This document shows, one piece after another, positions 13,482 through 19,746 of a DNA stretch of 42,919 nt. The notes below the pieces were generated by a model. The model did no database searches. It had not been told where the DNA came from and saw only the letters and a list, made by a program, of their open reading frames with translations. The stretch covers positions 1 through 42,919 of the forward strand of contig PKCS01000038.1 in NCBI GenBank assembly GCA_002862305.1. Direction: 5' to 3'. Positions within the stretch are counted from its first letter, which is position 1. Each line of letters opens with the position of its first letter. Position numbers and translations under genes: made by a program. Source of the DNA: Phycisphaerae bacterium (lineage in GTDB: Bacteria; Planctomycetota; Phycisphaerae; Phycisphaerales; SM1A02).

Positions 13482-14159
13482 TCAGATCAGTTCGCCGAGT
13501 CCCGTGAGCCCGAGTGGTTCCCGCACGAAGAACGGTTCCCCCCGCTCGGCTCCGATCCTGCTGCCGAAGTAGGTTGCCGCGGAGTCCACCCATTCCACGA
13601 TCCGGCGGTTGCCCTCGTTGGCCACGAACTGGCTCTCGTAGGCGAGGATCGACTGCATCTTTCGTTCGTGGAACCCGCTGGTCTCGAAGATGAAGCTGGG
13701 TTGCGGCACCACCTTCAGGTGCGTGCAGTAGTAGTACACGAGCCTGGGAACGTGCCATGGCTCGCCCGGCAGGTCGATCTTGCCGAGCTTGGCATCGAAT
13801 CGTGCGTCCTCGATGATCCGGGTGCTCGCCCGGTGGTCCGGGTGTGCATCCTCGAAGTAGGGCAGGAACAGGATCTCCGGACGCTCCTGGCGCAGCAGGC
13901 CCGCGGTCAGGTGGCGGGACTCGATGTCGTGCTCGACGAATCGGTTCCGCAAACCCAGACAGGTCCGGCGCACGCCGAGGATCCTCGCCGATTCCCGTGC
14001 CTCCTTCGCACGTGTCTCGGGATCGCCGCAGGGCGTGGGCTCCCCGTCCGTCATGTCCAAGAGCACCAACTCGTGTCCCGCCGAGCTCAGGGCCGCGATC
14101 GTGCCGCCCATGCCCAGTTCCTGGTCATCGGGATGTGGTCCTGCAACTACGATCTTCAT
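13482..14159 (-). CDS. PIG-L/LmbE-family N-acetylglucosamine-type deacetylase (BshB1-like)
   Basis: A 225-residue zinc-dependent deacetylase. The metal-binding motif PHPDDQE (residues 8-14) and the second site AHPDH (105-109) are intact, with GMGGTIA and ETRAKEARESARILGV between them as in bacillithiol-pathway BshB1. The C-terminal part resembles BshB1 as well (HERKMQSILAYESQF, where the family has a K-x-x-A-x-x-A-Y-x-S-Q-F pattern). Substrates in this family are GlcNAc-malate, GlcNAc-inositol, or lipid-linked GlcNAc. It lies 33 bases after the glycosyltransferase gene on the minus strand, so the two probably act in one pathway, but the neighbour does not look like BshA. Calling it bacillithiol synthesis would be premature. 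Confidence 0.85.
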   Translation of the reverse strand: MKIVVAGPHPDDQELGMGGTIAALSSAGHELVLLDMTDGEPTPCGDPETRAKEARESARILGVRRTCLGLRNRFVEHDIESRHLTAGLLRQERPEILFLPYFEDAHPDHRASTRIIEDARFDAKLGKIDLPGEPWHVPRLVYYYCTHLKVVPQPSFIFETSGFHERKMQSILAYESQFVANEGNRRIVEWVDSAATYFGSRIGAERGEPFFVREPLGLTGLGELI

Positions 14160-14192
14160 GGTTCACTCCATCCGGAGCCAGATCGGCTCCGA

Positions 14193-15374
14193 TCACCGAG
14201 GCTGCCCACCCCGGGTCTTGCGTTCGAGAATCGAACGATACAGTCCTTCAAGCTCTTCCACCATCCTCCTCGCGGGGAACATCCGCCTGCACCGCTCCCT
14301 GCCTCGCTGTGCGAGTCGACCTTCCGATCCTGGATCGGATTGTGCCCGCAGGATGGATCGAGCGAGCCCGTCGATGTCGCCCGGAGCAAGGAGTCGGCCC
14401 GTCTCCCCGTCGATGACCGCCTCACGCGTCCCGTCGACGTCGTAGGCGACCACCGGCGTCCCGCTCAGTAGCGCCTGGGGAACCGTCCTCGGCAAGCCCT
14501 CTCGCAGGCTGGGATGGGCCAGAAGGTCGATCGAGTGCATCACCGCCGGCATCTGGTCGGGTGGGAGGGCCCCGGTGAACACCACCCGGTCCGCCAGCCC
14601 GAGTCTCTCCACCTGCCGTCGCAGCTGCGCACCGCGATACCCATCGCCCACCCAGAGGAGCTTGACGGATTCCTCTGCGAGCAGCCTTCCCTGCATGATC
14701 TTCAGCAGGTCGTCGTGACCCTTGAGCTCGGCCAGTCTGGCAACCGTGCCCACCACGAAGTCCTCGGGTCGGAGCCCGTGTCTCGCACGCCACTCGACCG
14801 GATCGAAGTCAGCGTGCATGAACGATTCGGTCTCCATCCCCGAATAGATCGTGGAGTAGAGGTCCGGCTGGCCCACGCCGGCCGCGAGGGCCTGGTCCCG
14901 CATCGCATCCGCGACGCACACGATCGCATCGCACCTGCTGGCCGCCATGCGTTCCAGGGCGATGTACAGCCCGTTGCGAATCCGCGACTGGTAGGGGTGG
15001 AATGGAAGCCCGTGGATGGTGTGCACGATTGCCGGCACGCCTTCGGCTCGGGCTGCCATCCGCCCGAGGATGCCCGCCTTCGAGGAGTGGGTGTGCACGA
15101 CGTCCGGACGATGCTCCCGGATCAGCCGCCTCAGCCGGGACCTGCACCGCAGGTCTCGAACGGGTGAGATGTGCCGGACGAGGTCTGGTACCTCCACCGT
15201 CCCGATGCCTCCATGTGACCTGGCGCGATCCAGCAGGCTTCCCTCCGGACCGTAGATCGGTCCGAACGCAAGCATCACCTCGTGACCGTCATCGGCCTGC
15301 CCCATGCATGAGAGCAGCGTGTTCTCCTGGGAACCGCCGAGGATCAGTCTGGTTGAGAGGTGCATGATTCTCAA
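14193..15374 (-). CDS. Glycosyltransferase family 4 (GT-B fold)
   Basis: A 393-residue retaining glycosyltransferase that transfers a sugar from a nucleotide-sugar donor to a glycan or lipid acceptor at the membrane. The N-terminal domain has the glycine-rich acceptor region LILGGSQENTLLS and RPDVVHTHSSKAGILGR; the C-terminal domain has VGTVARLAELKGHDDLL, LLWVGDGYRGAQLR, VVFTGALP, and the donor-site motif SLREGLPRTVPQALLSGTPVVAYDVDG with the conserved E-x7-E type glutamates in part. A TTG at 15374 is proposed as the start because GGGAG (15382-15386) lies seven bases upstream and MRIMHLST is the usual GT4 N-terminus; an ATG at 15365 is the alternative. Overall it resembles EPS or PelF-type transferases. 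Its acceptor is unknown. Confidence 0.88.
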   Translation of the reverse strand: MRIMHLSTRLILGGSQENTLLSCMGQADDGHEVMLAFGPIYGPEGSLLDRARSHGGIGTVEVPDLVRHISPVRDLRCRSRLRRLIREHRPDVVHTHSSKAGILGRMAARAEGVPAIVHTIHGLPFHPYQSRIRNGLYIALERMAASRCDAIVCVADAMRDQALAAGVGQPDLYSTIYSGMETESFMHADFDPVEWRARHGLRPEDFVVGTVARLAELKGHDDLLKIMQGRLLAEESVKLLWVGDGYRGAQLRRQVERLGLADRVVFTGALPPDQMPAVMHSIDLLAHPSLREGLPRTVPQALLSGTPVVAYDVDGTREAVIDGETGRLLAPGDIDGLARSILRAQSDPGSEGRLAQRGRERCRRMFPARRMVEELEGLYRSILERKTRGGQPR

Positions 15375-15431: not shown

Positions 15432-16208
15432 CTACCCGGCCGAGCGCTCTCGCGGGTATTCGATCCACTCGAGCCGCAGGCCCTCGGGGCCCAGAGTCGG
15501 TCCGGTCAGTGCCCGGTCATTCCGATCGAGTGCTTCGCGGATGCTGCGAGGGTGTCTCGCCCCCCGTCCGATCTCGAGCAGCGATCCGGCGATGATCCGC
15601 ACCATGTTGTACAGGAATCCGTCTCCGACCACCGCGACCCTCACCCGGCTCCCAGGCATGGAGTCCACGATGCACTCCTCGATTGTCCGCACTGTCGACT
15701 CCCTTCCGTGGCTGGCGCTCGCGAAGGGCTCGAAGTCGTGGGTGCCCACCAGCAGTCCTGCACCCTCGTTCATCAGCCCGGGGTCGAGATCGTGATGGGT
15801 GCGCCAGACCAACCTCCGGTCGAAGAGCGGGGGCAGTCCCGTGCCGTGCTGGATGGTGTACTGGTAGCGTTTCCTTCTCGCATCCGAGATCGGATCGAAG
15901 GATTCGTCGACCTGTTCGGCCTCGACCACCTGCATGTCCGAGGGACACCGGGCGGTGATCGCCCGGGGCAGTCGCTCGAGGGGGATCTCCCGGGTGGTCG
16001 AGAACGCGGCGACCTGGCCCAGAGCGTGCACCCCGGAATCGGTGCGGGAAGCCCCGACCAGGCTCACACGTTCCCTCACCACCTTGCAGATCGCCTCCTC
16101 AAGGACACCCTGCACCGTGCGCAGTGGGGCCCGGCCCGGTGGTTCCTGCTTCTGCCACCCGTGGAAGTCGGTTCCCTCGTAGGCCACGGTGAGCTTGTAG
16201 CGCGGCAT
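15432..16208 (-). CDS. truA: tRNA pseudouridine(38-40) synthase TruA
   Basis: A 258-residue enzyme that isomerises uridines 38-40 in the anticodon arm of tRNAs. The N-terminus KLTVAYEGTDFHGWQKQ and the catalytic motif GASRTDSGVHALGQ with the nucleophilic Asp57 are unmistakable. Further family elements are DPISDARRKRYQYTI, VGTHDFEPFAS, and the C-terminal GDGFLYNMVRIIAGSLLEIG. The length is normal. It starts eight bases after the stop of the P-loop/NDT-like gene on the minus strand, suggesting co-transcription, and is followed by a hairpin and a glycosyltransferase gene. Confidence 0.97.
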   Translation of the reverse strand: MPRYKLTVAYEGTDFHGWQKQEPPGRAPLRTVQGVLEEAICKVVRERVSLVGASRTDSGVHALGQVAAFSTTREIPLERLPRAITARCPSDMQVVEAEQVDESFDPISDARRKRYQYTIQHGTGLPPLFDRRLVWRTHHDLDPGLMNEGAGLLVGTHDFEPFASASHGRESTVRTIEECIVDSMPGSRVRVAVVGDGFLYNMVRIIAGSLLEIGRGARHPRSIREALDRNDRALTGPTLGPEGLRLEWIEYPRERSAG

Positions 16209-16216
16209 CGTCGAGG

Positions 16217-17350
16217 TCAGTGTCCAAAGAGGTTTCGCTGCGCGAACATCCCCTGCTCCTCGAAGTATCCGAGGGCGTCATCAACGGTGGGGAATATCTT
16301 GGTGGCCGTCTCGGTGATGAACGGGCTCGGGGCCTTGGCGGGCTTCCAGACCACGTACACCTCCTTGGTGTGCTCCCATGCATGGTGGAGCTCCCGTTCG
16401 ACCCCGCTCGACAGACCGGGTACCCCTCCCTCAAGCTCGGGTATGAACGAGATGATCATCTCGGACTGGTCGATCAGCTTGAAGTCCCTCATGTAGATCT
16501 GCCCGTCGATGTCCCCGGCGATGTCCAGCACGTCCATGACCGAGACCTTCTGGGGGGAGGAGTCCTTGCGTCCCCCGAAGGTGTGCTCCTCGAGTCGTAT
16601 CCAGTCCTCGCCGTTCCGTGCCGCATCCAGTGCGAGGTCGAGAAGCAACTTCTCATCCACGTCGGCGGGATCGAACGCGATGAAGTGCTCGGCGATCGAG
16701 GCCCTGAAGTCGTCGATCTCCTTGAGCACGTCGGGCTTGTCGACCACGTGGCTCATCGGGAAGGAGGGGTAGACCTTGCGCAGGTCGGGTCGGGTCACAA
16801 GGCGCATGCAGGTCTCGATGTTGTCGTTCTGGCGACCGCGGCTCAGGATGTAGAACTGGTCGTGGCAGCCCATCGCATTCGCAAGGAGCTCGGTTGCCAG
16901 GATCTCCTCCTCGCGCCAGACCATGCAGTCCTTGAGTTTCGCATCGATGTCGTGTTCCTGGTGCAGTCGATGGTGGACGGTCTCCACGTTGTCCACGAGG
17001 CAGATCATCATGTCCGGCTTCAGGAGCGACATCTGGTCGAAGTCAAACGCACTGAAGAGCCCGTGCCTCCACCGGAACGTCGCGTGGGTGTTCACGATGA
17101 TGTTCGGGTGCTCCTCGACCGGGGAGCTCTCGGAGATGATGTCCTTGAACGCGGCTCGTCGCAGGCTCGCCAGTCTCGACAGCGGCAGGTCGAGTATCCG
17201 ACCGGCCCTGACGTCCGGGGCCTCGTCGTACATCATGCTCCCGACGTTGAAGATGTCGATCGCGGAGCCCCTCTCCCCGGCCGTGTTGCAGACCTCCTCG
17301 AGAAAGGGTTTCTTGTCCACGCCGATCTGACCGGTAACGATGGCTCGCAT
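16217..17350 (-). CDS. Adenylate-kinase-like P-loop protein with degenerate Walker A, fused to a nucleoside deoxyribosyltransferase-like domain
   Basis: A 377-residue protein with two recognisable parts. Residues 1-190 resemble archaeal-type adenylate kinases: an N-terminal strand and loop IVTGQIGVDKKPFLEE in the Walker A position, FNVGSMMYDEAPDVR, IIVNTHATFRWRHGLFSAF, and LLKPDMMICLVDNVETVHHRL. The P-loop is degenerate, because the invariant glycine before lysine is Asp (GVDKK) and the Ser/Thr after it is Lys. A helical linker follows. Residues 275-377 look like a nucleoside 2-deoxyribosyltransferase or similar Rossmann-like domain (QSEMIISFIPELEGGVPG, SSGVERELHHAWEHTKEVYVVWKP). A good Shine-Dalgarno (AAGGAG) precedes the ATG. 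It could be a nucleotide or nucleoside sensor rather than a kinase; that is inference. Confidence 0.7.
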   Translation of the reverse strand: MRAIVTGQIGVDKKPFLEEVCNTAGERGSAIDIFNVGSMMYDEAPDVRAGRILDLPLSRLASLRRAAFKDIISESSPVEEHPNIIVNTHATFRWRHGLFSAFDFDQMSLLKPDMMICLVDNVETVHHRLHQEHDIDAKLKDCMVWREEEILATELLANAMGCHDQFYILSRGRQNDNIETCMRLVTRPDLRKVYPSFPMSHVVDKPDVLKEIDDFRASIAEHFIAFDPADVDEKLLLDLALDAARNGEDWIRLEEHTFGGRKDSSPQKVSVMDVLDIAGDIDGQIYMRDFKLIDQSEMIISFIPELEGGVPGLSSGVERELHHAWEHTKEVYVVWKPAKAPSPFITETATKIFPTVDDALGYFEEQGMFAQRNLFGH

Positions 17351-19142: not shown

Positions 19143-19248
19143 CGTGCATTGATTCCGGGTTCGGAGAGGATGATTTGGCAGCGAGTTCGATGATATCAGA
19201 TCCATCCTGCCGATCATCGACATGGGACCCATTCCCAGAGGTATGCAC

Positions 19249-19746
19249 ATGAGCTCGCGAGCGATCGATCACCAGTCCATGCTCTTCCCCGCAACGCTGC
19301 TGGCGGGCCTCGTGCTGCTCGCCGGCTGCTTCAATCCGAACGGCGGGGTGACGGGCTACTTTGCCTACGTCTCGACCCCGGTATCCCCGAAGACCGTGGT
19401 GATCTACGACGTGCGCAGTGGTGAGGCATGGTTCAAGAAGGAGATCCCGGTCGGTCAACAGCTCAACTTCAGGTTCCTGTCGCAGGGCGGCGACAATCCG
19501 CAGTTCTCTCCCTCGCGATTCGAGTGGGCGATGGTCGAAGCCGGGAACAATGCAAGCGCGCTCACCAACCAGATGACCGCACCACCCGAGGAAGCATGTT
19601 CGATCCGGGTGGACATCCGCGAACCCGAATACCACCCGATTCCCGACTCGGAACGCTATCGCCAGGATGCCGTGTTCGAGGGGGTCGACCCCGCCGACAG
19701 CGAGGATGACATCCCGGTCGGCAACAGGAACTTCTACGACGAATAG
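19249..19746 (+). CDS. Hypothetical lipoprotein
   Basis: A 165-residue protein with a lipoprotein signal peptide: a short basic/polar start, the hydrophobic core LFPATLLAGLVLLAG, and the lipobox LAGC. The mature part is mixed beta-like (VTGYFAYVSTPVSPKTVVIYDVR) and ends in an acidic tail with DSEDDIPVG. The ATG at 19249 is chosen because GAGG (19238-19241) lies seven bases upstream; the frame is open from 19222. The family is not recognised, although the pattern PVSPKTVVIYDVRSGE with a W-x-K-E-IPVG segment suggests a small beta-sandwich. It lies between divergent ispF and convergent murD and appears to be a single-gene unit. Confidence 0.7.
   Translation: MSSRAIDHQSMLFPATLLAGLVLLAGCFNPNGGVTGYFAYVSTPVSPKTVVIYDVRSGEAWFKKEIPVGQQLNFRFLSQGGDNPQFSPSRFEWAMVEAGNNASALTNQMTAPPEEACSIRVDIREPEYHPIPDSERYRQDAVFEGVDPADSEDDIPVGNRNFYDE

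Follow-up and report, generated by a model that had tools for sequence, protein, structure and literature searches.

The window (the whole stretch of DNA that was analysed, 42,919 nucleotides) encodes a two-domain protein, here called FUS, in which an archaeal adenylate-kinase-like domain with a degenerate P-loop precedes a domain of the nucleoside deoxyribosyltransferase (NDT), DNPH1 and MilB fold. On balance we lean towards reading it as an N-glycosidase of nucleoside 5'-monophosphates (or a phosphodeoxyribosyltransferase) whose adenylate-kinase domain does not act as a kinase. The predicted folds, residue invariance, distribution and purifying selection described below were computed here, and from there on we infer the chemistry, the substrate and what the N-terminal half does.

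The FUS ORF is a genuine gene, kept under strong purifying selection, and no chance reading frame, since dN is low compared with dS and differences fall mostly at third codon positions. Against an 86%-identical relative (L002), dN is 0.085 and dS 1.82, the latter near saturation, and 186 of the 243 differences are at third positions (33/24/186 by codon position). The AlphaFold2 model of the full-length protein, made with 63 sequences, has a mean pLDDT of 87.4 and a pTM of 0.87. The features discussed are collected in Table 1.

Table 1. Positions in the window of FUS, its domains and motifs, and the adjoining truA gene
Feature	Residues	Positions	Strand	Remarks
FUS, two-domain protein	377 aa	16217..17350	minus	ORF with ATG start; stop codon included
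FUS N-terminal domain	1-187	16790..17350	minus	archaeal adenylate-kinase fold; Pfam AAA_17, PDB profile search, fold comparison
Degenerate Walker A, GQIGVDKK	7-14	17309..17332	minus	consensus G-x-[IV]-G-x-[DNHE]-[KR]-x
NTHATFRWRHGLF	87-99	17054..17092	minus	aligned with DTH...GY segment of archaeal adenylate kinases
FUS C-terminal domain	188-377	16220..16789	minus	NDT/DNPH1/MilB fold (predicted)
YPSFP	194-198	16757..16771	minus	Y194 likely the catalytic Tyr (DNPH1 Y24), from motif position
RDF	288-290	16481..16489	minus	D289 likely equivalent to DNPH1 D80 / MilB D78
LSSGVEREL	313-321	16388..16414	minus	E320 likely nucleophile (DNPH1 E104, MilB E103)
PSPFITET	341-348	16307..16330	minus	conserved P341, S342, F344, T348; candidate substrate-closing segment
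truA		15432..16208	minus	8 nt downstream of FUS; TIGR00071 above cut-off

The C-terminal domain and its predicted active site

The NDT-type identity of the C-terminal half is confirmed by its predicted fold; by sequence it is sub-threshold only. In the whole AlphaFold2 model, residues 188-370 gave Z-scores of 14.4 to 7o62, 13.1 to DNPH1 and 10.9 to MilB. When the C-terminal domain was modelled alone, the best of five models had a pLDDT of 86.3 (the five spanned 86.3 to 44.1) and its best VIA row was again 7o62, the 2'-deoxyribosyltransferase of D. psychrophila (Z 16.8, rmsd 2.0, 128 aligned). Among the 50 VIA rows listed, with Z from 16.8 to 12.6, 49 are named as NDT, DNPH1/RCL or MilB/BcmB, the remaining one being 7m5h, an unnamed Enterococcus protein. 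The human and rat 2'-deoxynucleoside 5'-phosphate N-hydrolase DNPH1/RCL aligns with Z up to 15.3 (rmsd 2.1, 121 aligned, 15% identity), and the CMP N-glycosidases MilB and BcmB with Z of 13.3 and 12.8; none of these enzymes has the adenylate-kinase-like domain found at the front of FUS. Foldseek also placed 7o62 first (E 2.0e-5), followed by Sir2 rows, with DNPH1 appearing from E 1.7e-3.

The NDT family PF05014 leaves the FUS of the window unmatched at E up to 1, and its C-terminal part unmatched at E up to 10. Elsewhere in the family it matches 19 of 30 C-terminal parts when E up to 10 is allowed (best 0.015, under the cut-off), and 5 of 26 full-length proteins (best E 0.087). Comparison with hhalign of the FUS C-terminal half and 18 real PF05014 proteins gave E 5e-5 and a probability of 67.6; the control, in which the N-terminal half was compared with PF05014 proteins, gave 0.14 and 0.4. 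A PDB sequence search with the C-terminal profile found no NDT chain, and its sole match, a GTPase at E 0.48, was taken as chance. The original prediction had put an NDT-like domain in the last 100 residues: the fold stands, but the domain occupies about 180 residues, since its Tyr motif lies at residues 194-198.

Residue conservation was counted over 133 distinct FUS proteins, that of the window included, from loci L001-L152. Y194, D289, S314, G316 and E320 are invariant in this set, and so are Ser196, Pro198, Pro228, Asp280, Gln284, Ser342, Phe344 and Thr348; in the FDP motif that contains Pro228, D227 is found in 132. The SSGVERE string singled out by the original prediction is thus the E320 motif, and the acidic residues of this half whose conservation it proposed to check include D289 and E320, present without exception. 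According to hhalign, E320 falls on an invariant Glu of the PF05014 proteins and S314 on an invariant Asp. D289 falls on the Asp of the first PF05014 row, in a column that varies among local PF05014 proteins; Cys seems to stand in for Asp here in many PF05014 proteins of planctomycetes.

In DNPH1, Y24, D80 and E104 form the catalytic triad and S98 binds phosphate (PMC10603095, in excerpt). MilB uses D78, S97, G99 and E103, the Ser and Gly as phosphate ligands and the Glu as nucleophile (PMC4081090, in excerpt), a set matched by S314, G316 and E320 of FUS. Ser314 lies six residues ahead of Glu320, the same spacing as S98/E104 in DNPH1 and S97/E103 in MilB, and is likely the 5'-phosphate Ser equivalent to these two. 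For the 5'-OH, NDTs have Asp or Asn, and enzymes that act on nucleotides carry uncharged residues there (excerpted text of PMC12884076); the Ser of FUS at this place suggests 5'-monophosphate substrates over nucleosides. Residue identity at the Tyr position goes with ribose or deoxyribose, being Phe in the ribose-preferring MilB and Tyr in DNPH1 (PMC10603095, in excerpt). Tyr194 would accordingly predict a preference for 2'-deoxyribose in FUS, in contrast to MilB. Because both Ser314 and Tyr194 match the DNPH1-type pattern, the substrate is probably a deoxyribonucleotide. The original guess at a nucleotide-binding sensor or an NAD- or nucleoside-processing protein finds only partial support, as Ser314 points to 5'-monophosphates rather than to nucleosides or NAD. 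No FUS equivalents were assigned to R30, H56 and S128' of DNPH1 or R23 of MilB, the loops giving no certain residue alignment, and no counterpart was identified for the second Ser/Arg with which DNPH1 and MilB close their phosphate site.

A catalytic cycle can be proposed by analogy. The 5'-phosphate of the substrate would sit on S314 and G316, and E320, held by Y194, would attack the anomeric carbon to give a (deoxy)ribose-5-phosphate ester while D289 protonates the leaving base. Either water or another base would then resolve the ester. With another base, FUS would not be a hydrolase but a base-exchange phosphodeoxyribosyltransferase that makes or recycles a modified nucleotide, like phage DmtZ. 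We consider this unlikely as the sole activity, although the closest structure among the VIA rows listed is a 2'-deoxyribosyltransferase and P228 of the FDP motif, invariant as noted, may be equivalent to the Pro conserved in known transferases (Pro57 in DmtZ; PMC12884076, in excerpt). The alignment at this point is ambiguous, however, and D227-P228 could match either the water-activating Glu55 of DNPH1 or the transferase Pro; moreover, the DNPH1 rows follow close behind at Z 15.3. Hydrolase and transferase may both fit D227-P228. By residue numbers, and if the FDP motif does correspond to E55, its distance to D289 is about 35 residues longer than that from E55 to D80 in DNPH1.

Fusion of NDT-fold nucleotide enzymes to nucleotide-metabolism domains has precedents in the dAMP-using transferase DmtZ and the phage NDT-Dut fusion (PMC12884076, in excerpt). 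The partner in NDT-Dut is dUTPase-like and the hosts of the fusion are Z-DNA phages (same excerpt), whereas FUS is found in bacterial genomes of one class. In a viral fold library the top match to the two-domain model was A0A8S5VIY1 (294 aa), over 374 columns at rmsd 17.4; this protein and phage G Gp264, which cover about 375 columns at poor rmsd, are possible viral kinase-NDT fusions.

The adenylate-kinase-like N-terminal domain

The archaeal adenylate-kinase layout that the original prediction saw in the N-terminal half is borne out by sequence and fold searches. The sole Pfam match of FUS at E up to 1 is AAA_17 (34.9 bits, cut-off 27), phmmer matches 6ln3 at 2.1e-8, and a PDB profile search gives E 7.4e-12. 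Residues 1-187 of the AlphaFold2 model superpose on 3h86/6pjw with a Z-score of 19.6 (rmsd 2.1, 180 aligned, 18% identity), the likeness in fold extending to 6ln3 and OdinAK. The score against the archaeal adenylate kinase equivalog PRK04040 of NCBIfam, 31.1 bits, is far under its cut-off of 155.

FUS differs from these kinases in the residues that define their P-loop. The loop reads TGQIGVDKKPF (residues 6-16) in the window. Across the 133 proteins, position 12 is Asp in 121, Asn in six, His in three and Glu in three, but never Gly; position 13 is Lys in 131 and Arg in two; and position 14 is Lys in 112, Arg in ten, Ala and Gly in three each, Thr and Gln in two each, Leu in one and Ser in none. 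No protein of the set has the functional Walker A pattern GxxGxGK[ST], so that the degenerate loop of the original prediction, GQIGVDKKPF, is a family trait without an intact exception, and its Lys 13 is nearly constant. In the segment aligned with DTH...GY, N87, H89, W94 and H96 are invariant, and the Asp of DTH, as placed by alignments with 6ln3, 6pjw, 1ki9 and 3h86, is Asn87 throughout. Run by itself against 246 genomes, the N-terminal profile had matches in 17, each coinciding with a FUS gene, and at E up to 0.01 it retrieved no free-standing relative whose loop is intact.

Having lost the Gly and Ser/Thr of its P-loop as well as the Walker-B-like Asp, the N-terminal half is probably no phosphotransferase. 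The invariance of many of its other residues suggests a retained ligand, with a nucleotide as the likeliest candidate. We therefore picture it as a nucleotide-binding or assembly module that would gate, select for or assemble the glycosidase. A more pointed version, in which the dead adenylate kinase reads nucleotides as a lid or allosteric gate over a dNMP N-glycosidase, is put forward tentatively; FUS would then be a nucleotide-surveillance enzyme that defines its class, in most members of which it would destroy a specific toxic or non-canonical nucleotide. The departure from Walker A is by itself no proof of lost kinase activity, since solved methanococcal adenylate kinases also deviate, having in the alignments Gly for the P-loop Lys, yet these keep the Gly and Thr. 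Judged by its conservation, the altered loop of FUS appears to do something, though phosphotransfer need not be that role.

Were phosphotransfer retained, FUS could be a bifunctional salvage enzyme in which a kinase with a remodelled P-loop and the NDT-like domain process the same nucleotide one after the other. Some observations fit: K13 is replaced only by Arg, in two proteins, and conservation of the loop is tight, unlike that of a drifting sequence; a changed P-loop is tolerated by solved chains that bear the name adenylate kinase; and HGPRT-adenylate kinase is both a fusion precedent and a precedent for a bifunctional salvage enzyme (PMC7326950, in excerpt). The replacement of Gly12 in every protein, the presence of Ser/Thr at position 14 in only two and the uniform change of the DTH Asp to Asn make this quite unlikely, however, and an ADK-family kinase (PF00406) is already present in 19 of 21 related genomes. 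The absence of a PF00406 match from G000 itself, which would favour the bifunctional enzyme, is read as an assembly gap because three genomes of its genus, G002, G003 and G004, do show a match; G001 (54% complete) is likewise without.

Distribution, a divergent homologue and genomic context

FUS is characteristic of one bacterial class, probably Phycisphaerae judging by the labels of relatives in named records. It was matched in 59 of the 61 close relatives (a count that takes in its own genome), in 128 of the 150 class genomes (113 of the 126 better ones) and, with the A1 profile, in 346 of 397 genomes sampled from the class (259 of the 284 better ones). A phylum-wide sample of 294 genomes contained it in 22, comprising 21 of 22 class members and one of 272 others. 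This sole out-of-class copy (L045 in G274, 62% identity) is a possible transfer, or else a binning error or mis-binned contig. There is usually one copy per genome. Named records hold at least 420 confirmed relatives, of which the best 80 were kept; most are labelled Phycisphaerae, Phycisphaerales or other planctomycete, a few MAGs carrying other labels (for example L093, L110 and L121). Three genomes of family f105 (G469, G615 and G626) have two FUS matches each, the best being well above those of other f105 genomes and nearer the order of the window, a possible transfer between orders. Weak matches were seen in G432 to the A1 profile (E 4.2e-6) and, to the C-terminal profile (A3), in G341, G416, G362 and at a second place in G274 (E 0.27 to 0.93).

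The C-terminal profile also retrieved, at E 3.9e-5, a 421-residue protein (L221:571-1836, plus strand) from G349, a class member in which no FUS was found. It matches FUS proteins in both halves and scores 40.3 bits with the FUS profile, the best of 500 shuffles reaching 4.1. Its P-loop, GPTGTQKH, is degenerate in its own way, and of the FUS motifs it retains the Tyr, RDF and LSxGVxxE ones but not the NTHATFRWRHGLF segment, which makes the putative glycosidase site the more constant part of the protein. This may be a second subfamily. Strong matches to it occur in one of 21 genomes in one search and one of 268 in another, in both cases G349 itself. The other 18 genomes matched in the 268-genome search gave 1.3e-5 to 8.8e-4, 15 of the places being FUS genes and three having no coordinates to compare. 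Searches of phage, plasmid and viral-contig collections found no relatives of this protein; G182, G416 and G393 have weak matches (E 0.012 to 0.75).

On the strand of FUS the genes run MurD, IspF, DedA/VTT protein, FUS, TruA, GT4 glycosyltransferase and BshB1-like deacetylase. TruA lies within 200 nt after FUS in 50 of 74 loci, these being the ones with at least 900 nt downstream among the 80 highest-identity FUS loci. The two genes are likely co-transcribed in the family of the window, though truA is not a constant partner: 20 FUS loci from other families gave no truA match, and among ORFs of at least 100 aa within 8 kb no neighbour family occurred in more than four of them. The two larger neighbour clusters other than FUS itself in these loci proved to be frames overlapping FUS, and matches to familiar neighbours were isolated (GT4 in L136 and L137, BshB1 in L142, MurD in L147). 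A constant genomic partner was rejected, truA adjacency being limited and the other-family loci sharing no neighbour in more than four cases; for the same reasons no functional partner is implied. No neighbour points to nucleotide metabolism.

Median identity to the copy in the window was 72.9% for FUS in the 80 highest-identity loci, against 53.2% for TruA (FUS higher in 64/64 loci), 59.9% for IspF (45/45), 42.9% for MurD (38/38), 59.6% for BshB1 (48/48), 54.5% for GT4 (28/28), 42.5% for DedA (37/37) and 58.2% for DegT (7/7), a comparison that favours FUS through the choice of loci for FUS identity. At 13482-15374 of the window (minus strand) the GT4 glycosyltransferase adjoins the BshB1-like deacetylase (168.3 bits, cut-off 182.5), a pair that may be genes of a bacillithiol-type thiol pathway. 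At 19222-19746 (plus strand) a lipoprotein-like ORF, with LAGCF near its N-terminus, overlaps the first ATG of the opposite-strand ispF ORF and has tblastn matches near murD/ispF in many relatives.

Taken with the strict conservation of the degenerate P-loop, the 8-nt spacing to truA and the linkage to murD/ispF in the family of the window could fit a nucleotide sensor or scaffold that is non-catalytic in both halves. This is very unlikely given that the complete C-terminal catalytic pattern is invariant and is retained in the L221 protein too.

Neither phage, plasmid nor viral-contig collections yielded a relative of FUS, PHROGs gave a single match, at E 0.29, with a family whose function is unknown, and no PADLOC defence model matched at E up to 1. 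Least probable of all is an NAD/ADP-ribose or TIR-like signalling or defence protein, which could appeal to Foldseek rows of ThsA for the whole model and of Sir2, some above DNPH1, for the C-terminal domain, but these alignments are poor (rmsd 21-23 for ThsA, 15-17 for most Sir2 rows) and were set aside as mostly above rmsd 15, with the exception of two short rows of Plasmodium Sir2 (rmsd 3.7 over 86 columns and 6.0 over 94), while no Sir2 is among the 50 VIA rows listed, the defence, phage and plasmid searches were empty, FUS is widespread and highly similar through the class, and Ser at 314 points to monophosphates.

Meaning for the family

The original prediction knew of no described function for this combination, and within open-licence PMC papers we likewise found no description of FUS or of such a fusion. 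The protein is conserved, present in most sampled members of the class and known to Pfam only as an 'AAA domain', which suggests a lineage-specific core step of nucleotide metabolism; in the loci compared, chosen as they were, its neighbours with cell-wall, isoprenoid and tRNA-modification functions are less conserved. A likely job, shared by most of the class, is salvage of nucleotides or control of their pool.

The N-glycosidase reading can be tested directly through the invariant residues. If the adenylate-kinase domain is indeed a pseudoenzyme that regulates the glycosidase, protein pseudokinases would have in it a counterpart among NMP kinases and, should the gating version be true, FUS would to our knowledge be the first nucleotide sanitiser under the control of a pseudo-NMP-kinase.
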